32,839 nucleotides of DNA, taken from positions 1-32,839 of the forward strand of contig JAQTMH010000005.1 in NCBI GenBank assembly GCA_028714495.1, written 5' to 3'. Shown here in pieces: positions 16,040 to 16,527 of this stretch (positions are counted from its first letter, which is position 1; every line of letters starts with the position of its first letter). The position numbers and the translations under genes were made by a program. This DNA comes from Patescibacteria group bacterium (GTDB lineage Bacteria; Patescibacteriota; Patescibacteriia; JAHIZJ01). Under the pieces are notes generated by a model that was not told where the DNA came from, did no database searches, and saw nothing but the letters and a program-made list of their open reading frames with translations.

Positions 16040-16058
16040 GCCGATGTAGCTCAGCTGG
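16040..16058 (+). repeat. Partial copy of the tRNA-Thr 5' end (acceptor strand plus start of D-arm)
   Basis: GCCGATGTAGCTCAGCTGG matches tRNA-Thr positions 16072-16090 (GCCGATGTAGCTCAGTTGG) at 18/19. Confidence 0.85.
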
Positions 16059-16159
16059 CCCCGCCACCTCTGCCGATGTAGCTCAGTTGGTAGAGCAACT
16101 CCATGGTAAGGAGTAGGTCGTCGGTTCAATTCCGACCATCGGCTCCAGAGGTGGCGGGG
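16059..16159 (+). repeat. Inverted repeat flanking tRNA-Thr (extends acceptor stem)
   Basis: CCCCGCCACCTCT (16059-16071) is the exact reverse complement of AGAGGTGGCGGGG (16147-16159). Confidence 0.9.
16072..16147 (+). tRNA. tRNA-Thr (anticodon GGT), CCA encoded
   Basis: Acceptor GCCGATG/CATCGGC, anticodon stem ACTCC/GGAGT around ATGGTAA, T-arm GTCGGTTCAATTCCGAC, 3' TCCA. Confidence 0.95.
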
Positions 16160-16186
16160 TAAATAGCGCAACTTCACATATAGAAG

Positions 16187-16251
16187 TGTCTGGCGGGTGG
16201 ATACCAAAGCGGTCCCCGTCATACGACGGGGCAGGCGCTAGGGACCAGACA
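16187..16251 (+). other. tRNA-Tyr 5'-like fragment with a hairpin in place of the downstream arms
   Basis: GGCGGGTGGATACCAAAGCGGTC matches GGTGGGCAGGTACCTAAGCGGTC at 18/23; then CCCCGTC-ATAC-GACGGGG; whole unit closed by TGTCTGG (16187-16193)/CCAGACA (16245-16251). Confidence 0.6.
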
Positions 16252-16270: not shown

Positions 16271-16376
16271 AATCCAACCGGTGGGCAGGTACCTAAGCGG
16301 TCAACAGGGCCAGACTGTAAATCTGGTGCCTCCGGGCTTCGTAGGTTCGAATCCTACCCTGCCCACCAGTTGGATT
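16271..16376 (+). repeat. Inverted repeat flanking tRNA-Tyr (extends acceptor stem)
   Basis: AATCCAACCGGTGGGCAGG versus the reverse complement of CCTGCCCACCAGTTGGATT: 18/19 match. Confidence 0.9.
16283..16368 (+). tRNA. tRNA-Tyr (anticodon GTA), class II with long variable arm, CCA encoded
   Basis: Acceptor GGGCAGG/CCTGCCC, anticodon stem CCAGA-CTGTAAA-TCTGG, T-arm GTAGGTTCGAATCCTAC, 3' ACCA. Confidence 0.95.
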
Positions 16377-16418: not shown

Positions 16419-16527
16419 CTGGATTAATAAGGTCGGGCTTCGTAGGTTCTCCTGCCTCGATGGCGGGATCCCGCATTCCTTTCGTAGTTTTATATAAGGG
16501 TGCGGGAGAATCCTACCCTGCCCGCCA
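16419..16527 (+). repeat. Broken tRNA-Tyr 3' copy: T-arm split by a 58-nt insert
   Basis: CGGGCTTCGTAGGTTC (to 16449), then 58 nt (16450-16507), then GAATCCTACCCTGCCCGCCA (16508-16527; 19/20 to the tRNA-Tyr 3' end). Insert holds palindrome GCGGGATCCCGC (16463-16474) and TCCCGCA/TGCGGGA (16469-16475/16501-16507). Confidence 0.82.

Follow-up and report, generated by a model that had tools for sequence, protein, structure and literature searches.

Extended stems of neighbouring tRNA-Tyr and tRNA-Thr genes in a Patescibacteria genome as putative arms of tRNA cassettes nested in broken same-anticodon tRNA genes

Introduction

The tRNA-Tyr gene of a Patescibacteria genome is enclosed by two complementary sequences that lengthen its acceptor stem, and the neighbouring tRNA-Thr gene has the same architecture with other sequences. 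The question raised by this locus is whether such stems were selected as a structure or were left by a shared generating mechanism. The original prediction placed both explanations side by side and proposed a lineage-specific type of tRNA precursor. In this analysis a generating mechanism was better supported, whereas selection for the structure was not well supported.

Materials and Methods

The window is the whole stretch of DNA that was analysed, i.e., 32,839 nt (G000:C5:1-32839). Its genome, G000, has a size of 1.165 Mb in 6 contigs with 98.9% completeness. G001 and G002 belong to two other genera of the same family, and the three were separately assembled. The relatives that were compared are metagenome-assembled genomes.

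The tRNAs of the window were called by ARAGORN and Rfam (RF00005). For nested copies, the long-intron mode of ARAGORN yielded mostly chimeras of neighbouring tRNAs, and spliced alignment was used instead. Masked flanks were aligned to 243 tRNA templates with any number of long gaps. As the null, 60 stretches of the window that contain no tRNA gave a maximum score of 38.6, and the cut-off was set at 40. In the pairing test, the pairing energy of a leader with the trailer of the same tRNA was compared with that for all swapped trailers.

Results

Architecture of the tRNA-Tyr and tRNA-Thr loci

Re-checking of the tRNA-Tyr flanks together with the acceptor stem gave the predicted complementarity. 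The arms, AATCCAACCGGTGGGCAGG at 16271-16289 and CCTGCCCACCAGTTGGATT at 16358-16376, pair at 18 of 19 positions, and the sole non-pair is a C/A mismatch. The tRNA-Thr gene is located 211 nt upstream of tRNA-Tyr. Its arms (16059-16072 and 16146-16159) are complementary at 14 of 14 positions and unrelated to the Tyr arms, as had also been described.

The flanks additionally hold pieces of a second tRNA-Tyr gene and a second tRNA-Thr gene (repeats D1, D2, D4, and D5), which had been overlooked. The halves of the outer tRNA-Tyr span 16192-16250 and 16434-16527, i.e., they lie around the intact tRNA-Tyr (Table 1). No GIY-YIG gene remains beside the Tyr/Thr pair of the window.

Table 1. Features of the nested tRNA-Thr and tRNA-Tyr loci in the window.
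Feature	Position	Strand	Basis
Outer broken tRNA-Thr, 5' fragment (positions 1-19)	16040..16058	+	95% identity to intact tRNA-Thr 5' end (D4)
tRNA-Thr(GGU) cassette, left arm CCCCGCCACCTCT	16059..16071	+	Perfect complement of 16147-16159 (I2)
Inner intact tRNA-Thr(GGT)	16072..16147	+	ARAGORN; Rfam RF00005, 72.6 bits
tRNA-Thr cassette, right arm; last A of CCA common to arm and tRNA	16147..16159	+	I2
Outer tRNA-Thr, probable decayed continuation of D-stem/anticodon arm	16160..16188	+	Position only, compared with L302, L303, and L305; not significant alone in the window
Outer broken tRNA-Tyr, 5' fragment	16192..16214	+	78% identity to 16280-16302 (D1); score of 60 in spliced alignment (null maximum, 38.6)
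GC-rich hairpin CCCCGTC ATAC GACGGGG, inserted after D-arm of outer tRNA-Tyr	16214..16231	+	Sequence, fold, break point
Outer tRNA-Tyr, anticodon-arm 5' strand (..CCAGAC)	16233..16250	+	Spliced alignment trace
tRNA-Tyr cassette, left arm AATCCAACCGGT	16271..16282	+	Inverted repeat I1
Inner intact tRNA-Tyr(GTA), CCA encoded	16283..16368	+	ARAGORN, Rfam
tRNA-Tyr cassette, right arm ACCAGTTGGATT, overlapping discriminator base and CCA of the tRNA	16365..16376	+	Inverted repeat I1
Outer tRNA-Tyr, variable-arm/T-arm 5' piece	16434..16449	+	16/16 identity to 16333-16348 (D5)
58-nt palindromic insert (tcctgcc..gcggga) in T-loop of outer tRNA-Tyr	16450..16507	+	Sequence, fold, break point
Outer tRNA-Tyr, T-arm and acceptor 3' end	16508..16527	+	95% identity to 16349-16368 (D2)

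The tRNA-Thr cassette of the window, including its arms, is present in six genomes of four families. At three loci (L302, L303, and L305), an outer tRNA-Thr(GGU) contains it in the D-loop, at the same insertion point as in the window, and there the 3' part of the outer tRNA-Thr is readable. After the outer tRNA-Thr of L302 and L303 comes, in turn, the right arm of a different cassette type.

Extent of the extended stems

Leaders and trailers were scanned in the genome and its relatives against swapped pairs, a check of the kind proposed with the original prediction. The prediction passed it, and excess pairing was found in all three genera of the family. In G000, the mean energy was -18.3 kcal/mol for own pairs and -9.5 kcal/mol for swapped pairs (z -14.9), and the z values of G001 and G002 were -11.9 and -8.5. 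By an ungapped score, 22 of 47 tRNAs of G000, i.e., about half, were above the threshold, against 2.5 expected from swapped pairs. The value was z -2.3 for 48 tRNAs of other class members and z +0.5 for 68 tRNAs in other Patescibacteria, which agrees with the predicted lineage specificity of the structure.

Broken outer copies around intact tRNAs

The nesting seen in the window is widespread. Thirty-nine regions scored over the cut-off, and the best template had the amino acid of the inner tRNA in 28 of them and its anticodon in 25. Label shuffling gave means of 2.7 (maximum 11) and 1.5 (maximum 8), respectively. Of the 11 regions in which the amino acid differed, several contained an intact tRNA that had not been masked or the outer copy of a neighbour. 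Break points were located in loops in 30 of 48 cases (p 4e-4) and in the anticodon loop in 15 of 48 (p 3e-5).

The inserts are approximately 100-350 bp long. Their termini, TCCCGC..GCGGGA or CCCGCC..GGCGGG, are common to inserts with and without an inner tRNA. No integrase ORF was found within the nested inserts, and the inserts matched no ribozyme family. The group I catalytic core (RF00028) had no match in the window or at the nested loci, whereas the same search detected the intron of tRNA-Asn.

In the Val-CAC locus of G000, a complete second tRNA-Val(CAC) was found, the anticodon loop of which is interrupted by cctgcccgccgctggt, an intact tRNA-Val, and accagctttggcaggcggg. The Ala-CGC and Pro-UGG loci of G000 have more than one layer. 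Same-amino-acid nests were also found outside the family (L057, L061, L073, L111, L149, L152, and L161). Of these, L152, from an unrelated genome, has a Val-UAC nest three layers deep, in which the insert ends are identical at two levels. Most nested tRNAs outside the family have no extended stem; therefore, the arms are not required for nesting. In the open-licence literature, nested same-anticodon tRNAs in bacteria were not found reported.

The order of the layers can be read at the syntenic tRNA-Arg(UCU) locus, which lies downstream of the same recombinase-like gene in the three genomes. Copy A stands alone in G001, B lies in A in G002, and in G000 C lies in B, which lies in remnants of A. 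In G000, the own arms of B are still recognisable around the broken B. By eye, the reading frame directly upstream of this nest is a XerC/D-like recombinase gene in all three genera (L004, L081, and L094).

Spliceable introns of the archaeal style were rejected, because the outer copies accompany an intact copy with the same anticodon. The tRNA-Asn is the only isoacceptor found solely interrupted in G000, and its insert is a group I intron of approximately 220 nt in the anticodon loop (G000:C4:122090, L214; RF00028, 52.4 bits). A similar tRNA-Asn intron, under the cut-off, was found in G002 (G002:C16:4849, L219) with a GIY-YIG frame just upstream, and that genome has intact tRNA-Asn copies too. 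Two other unusual tRNA loci were seen in G000. A tRNA-like sequence (46 bits), the anticodon loop of which, AACAACAACAA, is over-long, was not called by ARAGORN (G000:C3:160715-160790, L045). A tandem pair of near-identical tRNAs with GTG anticodons (G000:C3:102137-102310, L003) is unlike the canonical tRNA-His elsewhere in the genome.

GIY-YIG endonuclease genes beside tRNAs

The GIY-YIG domain (PF01541) was detected above the cut-off in G000, G001, and G002, and in reading frames next to Leu-UAA and Tyr. The three family genomes contain 26 small GIY-YIG genes, of which 17 were located within 500 nt of a tRNA, against approximately 5% expected. The proportion was 5/5 in G000, and one of five in G001 was near a recognised tRNA. 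Counted from the tRNA side, 5 of 48 tRNAs of G000 have a GIY-YIG gene nearby. At all loci examined, GIY-YIG frames with a tRNA within 700 nt were always on the strand of the tRNA, mostly 10-150 nt off.

These genes are grouped by isoacceptor. In a tree of 42 GIY-YIG sequences, the nine rows adjacent to tRNA-Tyr, which come from at least eight families, formed one clade (support 94/96), and the Leu-UAA pair and a Val pair each grouped. Given the short alignment and a Tyr set retrieved by means of the hairpin, i.e., by biased sampling, isoacceptor-specific lineages are supported rather than proven by this tree. GIY-YIG genes of a different, common type (L004 and L081) may be bystanders.

This twin hairpin has the sequence CCACCGCC..GGCGGGGTGCCGC..GCGGCA and lies between TG and TAAA. 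Of 381 genomes of the class, 13 have it, at 19 sites in total, with no sites for the reversed-pattern control and none in the other classes sampled. All 19 sites are located in the anticodon loop of a remnant of either tRNA-Tyr (between CTG and TAAA) or tRNA-Thr(UGU); TG and TAAA were included in the search pattern, and the rest of the tRNA context was outside it. At seven sites, a GIY-YIG frame starts 12-33 nt further on. An intact tRNA-Tyr then follows at six of them, and at the seventh (L290) the examined sequence ends before any tRNA could show.

Discussion

Proposed origin of the nested cassettes

It is fairly probable that the extended stem represents the palindromic arms of a small tRNA cassette, which lies in a homing-type nest with a same-anticodon spare. 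A cassette with a complete functional tRNA-Tyr, together with further hairpin inserts, would have broken an older tRNA-Tyr gene. The same may hold for the neighbouring tRNA-Thr and for many tRNAs of the family, and serial rounds would produce a Russian-doll arrangement.

The proposed cycle begins with a free-standing GIY-YIG homing endonuclease, specific to one isoacceptor, which would cut the resident tRNA gene in the anticodon loop or D loop. Repair from a donor that has the matching tRNA halves on either side would copy the insert in. The full same-anticodon spare in the insert would keep the cell alive. Afterwards, the endonuclease gene may be lost, the outer halves would decay, and the next round would hit the spare. 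The nesting, the same-anticodon match, the order of the layers, the bias toward loops, the recurrence of arms and hairpins across families, and the endonuclease genes beside tRNAs were observed, whereas the cut by the endonuclease, the insertion in the manner of intron homing, and the function of the inner copy alone are inferred. The observed geometry, with resident halves on both sides, a fixed loop, and the same isoacceptor, matches that of homing, in which repair requires the same gene on either side of the cut. As the insert has no recognised ribozyme, splicing cannot be assumed, and an insert unable to splice would have to carry a full same-anticodon spare tRNA.

In its broadest form, the proposal is of a class of selfish elements that rescue the host by a spare copy. 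An isoacceptor-specific homing endonuclease would break an essential tRNA gene, and a non-splicing insert would bring a full, diverged replacement, i.e., a natural cleave-and-rescue drive, stacked into nests across the class. This broader proposal is tentative, and we give it slightly less than an even chance. Several points count against homing. GIY-YIG genes are absent beside the Tyr/Thr pair of the window and beside most tRNAs of G000, most of those in G001 are away from recognised tRNAs, and some may be bystanders. Outside the family, nesting mostly goes without extended stems. The arms of the Tyr cassette in the window stop short of the insert ends, and homing gives no account of why the spare, whose anticodon loop is the same, would not be cut as well.

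Transposition of palindromes

Another explanation is that RAYT-type (Y1) transposases, which attack the loops of hairpins, moved REP-like palindromes, with the tRNAs caught between the arms as cargo and no role for the endonuclease. For the simple hairpins, transposition of this type is the main rival, but as an account of the whole it is unlikely. Y1_Tnp genes were found in all three genomes (6 in G000, 1 in G001, and 14 in G002), and the preference of the inserts for loops is in line with such an attack. In G000, the palindrome family CCCNGNACC(N2-30)GGTNCNGGG has 23 sites, of which about ten are beside tRNAs and three are at the RNase P RNA gene, whereas its reversed pattern has none. The hairpin density of this genome is also higher near tRNAs (2.9/kb) than elsewhere (1.2/kb). 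However, the palindromes at the six Y1_Tnp loci of G000 differ from those in the tRNA loops, although two of them resemble palindromes beside one tRNA-Glu (L039). The same-anticodon match and the isoacceptor grouping of the GIY-YIG genes are also left unexplained.

Perfect GC-rich palindromes were seen inside the reading frame of the RAYT-like genes of G000 (L272-L276 and L280). Large hairpins are inserted in the RNase P RNA gene (G000:C3:128105-128750; L046 and L278). Near each of its two ends is a copy of the same 42-nt palindrome, CCCTGAACC..GGTTCAGGG, and a third palindrome of this family is internal. The score of the gene, 91-92 bits, is under the 100-bit cut-off of Rfam.

Selection of the arms as RNA

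The arms may instead have been selected as RNA, either as a processing stem, e.g., for an RNase III-like cut before RNase P, or as an insulator against mispairing with the near-identical outer halves. We regard this as improbable. The excess pairing across the family is consistent with it, and so is the association of extended stems with nested fragments, which were found beside 32 of 52 tRNAs with a stem and 15 of 65 without (pooled Fisher p 3e-5, same-anticodon nesting). The covariation check was run on the Thr arms. Three of 13 pairs vary with two-sided compensatory changes, a level reached by 16 of 500 shuffles in a pattern-chosen set of five distinct sequences, and DNA-level upkeep of a palindrome gives the same result. 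One A.C cell and one U.G cell were also seen. The pairing was thus probably kept somehow, as RNA or as DNA, and covariation does not separate the two.

Among mismatches within the arms, RNA-level upkeep should favour G.U, yet 22 G.U and 26 A.C were counted in 44 stems with no strand preference, which argues for a DNA palindrome decaying on both strands. An RNA-selected precursor stem was downgraded by this symmetry. Furthermore, the offset at which the stem starts is variable, about half of the tRNAs in G000 have no stem, and arm sequences reappear as DNA modules in other families. For these reasons, i.e., the parity of G.U and A.C, the variable offsets, the link to nesting, and the recurring Thr module, the lineage-specific precursor type that had been suggested is not well supported.

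When the leader pairs with RCCA, the RNase P of E. coli is slowed (PMC9433436), an effect that a cell with such arms would have to handle. Among the CPR RNase P RNAs of one survey, two thirds have no CCA-binding motif (PMC8172020), and the present lineage may or may not owe a tolerance of such leaders to this. Loss of RNase P as the cause of odd precursors was rejected, since the RNase P RNA is present in G000.

Copying errors and artefacts

Copying errors at a tRNA cruciform, i.e., template switching or tandem duplication, could insert the locus into itself and lengthen the palindrome with no mobile element. The outer copies of Leu-UAA and Ser-UGA in G001 and of Pro-UGG in G000 are nearest to their own inner copies, and the stems are often seamless across the junction of TGGT and ACCA. 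The inner copies of Pro-UGG and G001 Leu-UAA could thus be simple self-duplicates. Other outer copies are far nearer to the intact tRNA of another genome than to their own inner copy, with values of 93 and 40 for Arg-UCU, 107 and 39 for Val-CAC, 72 and 48 for Cys, and 87 and 54 for Ile-GAU, respectively. Their inner copies are therefore not simple self-duplicates, and simple tandem duplication is contradicted. Recurrence of the same arms and hairpins at one site in different families also stands against copying errors, which makes this explanation quite improbable. Chance complementarity or an assembly artefact is extremely improbable: the compared relatives are metagenome-assembled, but the three separately assembled genera agree, G000 is 98.9% complete in 6 contigs, the excess over the swapped controls is very large, and nesting was found in many other genomes.

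Significance and comparison with known systems

If the cassettes spread by homing with a spare tRNA as proposed, essential tRNA genes in these bacteria would be turned over by selfish elements that break and replace them. This would be a third route of survival for an insert in an essential gene, beside self-splicing introns and inteins. It would also explain the fragment-rich tRNA loci, the confusion of gene finders, and the precursor-like stems. The nested layers would then preserve a readable order of past invasions.

Group I introns invade the anticodon loops of bacterial tRNAs site-specifically, with or without a homing endonuclease. The nested inserts resemble them in invading the anticodon loop, and the only tRNA-Asn of G000 has such an intron. 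However, the nested inserts match no ribozyme family and have a spare tRNA in place of self-splicing. The REP/RAYT systems are similar in their short GC-rich palindromes, and RAYT-like genes are present; here, in contrast, the target is tRNA loops, the cargo is a same-anticodon tRNA, and the palindromes of the RAYT genes seem to differ from those in the tRNA loops.

In the rRNA genes of CPR bacteria, insertion sequences with LAGLIDADG endonucleases, many of them introns, are located at the tips or bases of stem-loops (PMC11270868). They share with the present inserts the Patescibacteria hosts, the structured-RNA genes, the homing endonucleases, and the stem-loop tips or bases, whereas the target here is tRNA and not rRNA. 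In that study, GIY-YIG was judged to be rare and outside homing in the rRNA setting, and tRNA was unmentioned.

The two halves of the idea have precedents in tRNA-dependent lysogeny and in SegB. In tRNA-dependent lysogeny of actinobacteriophages, the prophage disrupts a host tRNA gene, which is not restored, and the cell survives on a complete same-isotype tRNA that the prophage brings (PMC10865867). The present inserts would likewise break a tRNA gene and bring a whole tRNA, with the same anticodon in 25 of 39 regions. The phage inserts have a tyrosine integrase and attP/attB, whereas the present inserts are approximately 100-350 bp without an integrase, the spare is placed beside or inside palindromic arms, and the layers are stacked repeatedly. 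SegB of T-even phages (PMC13096335, citing Brok-Volchanskaya et al.) is a free-standing GIY-YIG enzyme that cuts within tRNA genes and drives the spread or amplification of tRNA segments. A free-standing GIY-YIG gene linked to tRNA genes is common to both, with the cutting predicted in the present case. SegB acts on phage tRNA arrays with no isotype preference, whereas the system described here is bacterial, its enzyme genes are grouped by isoacceptor, and its tRNAs are nested within copies of the same anticodon.
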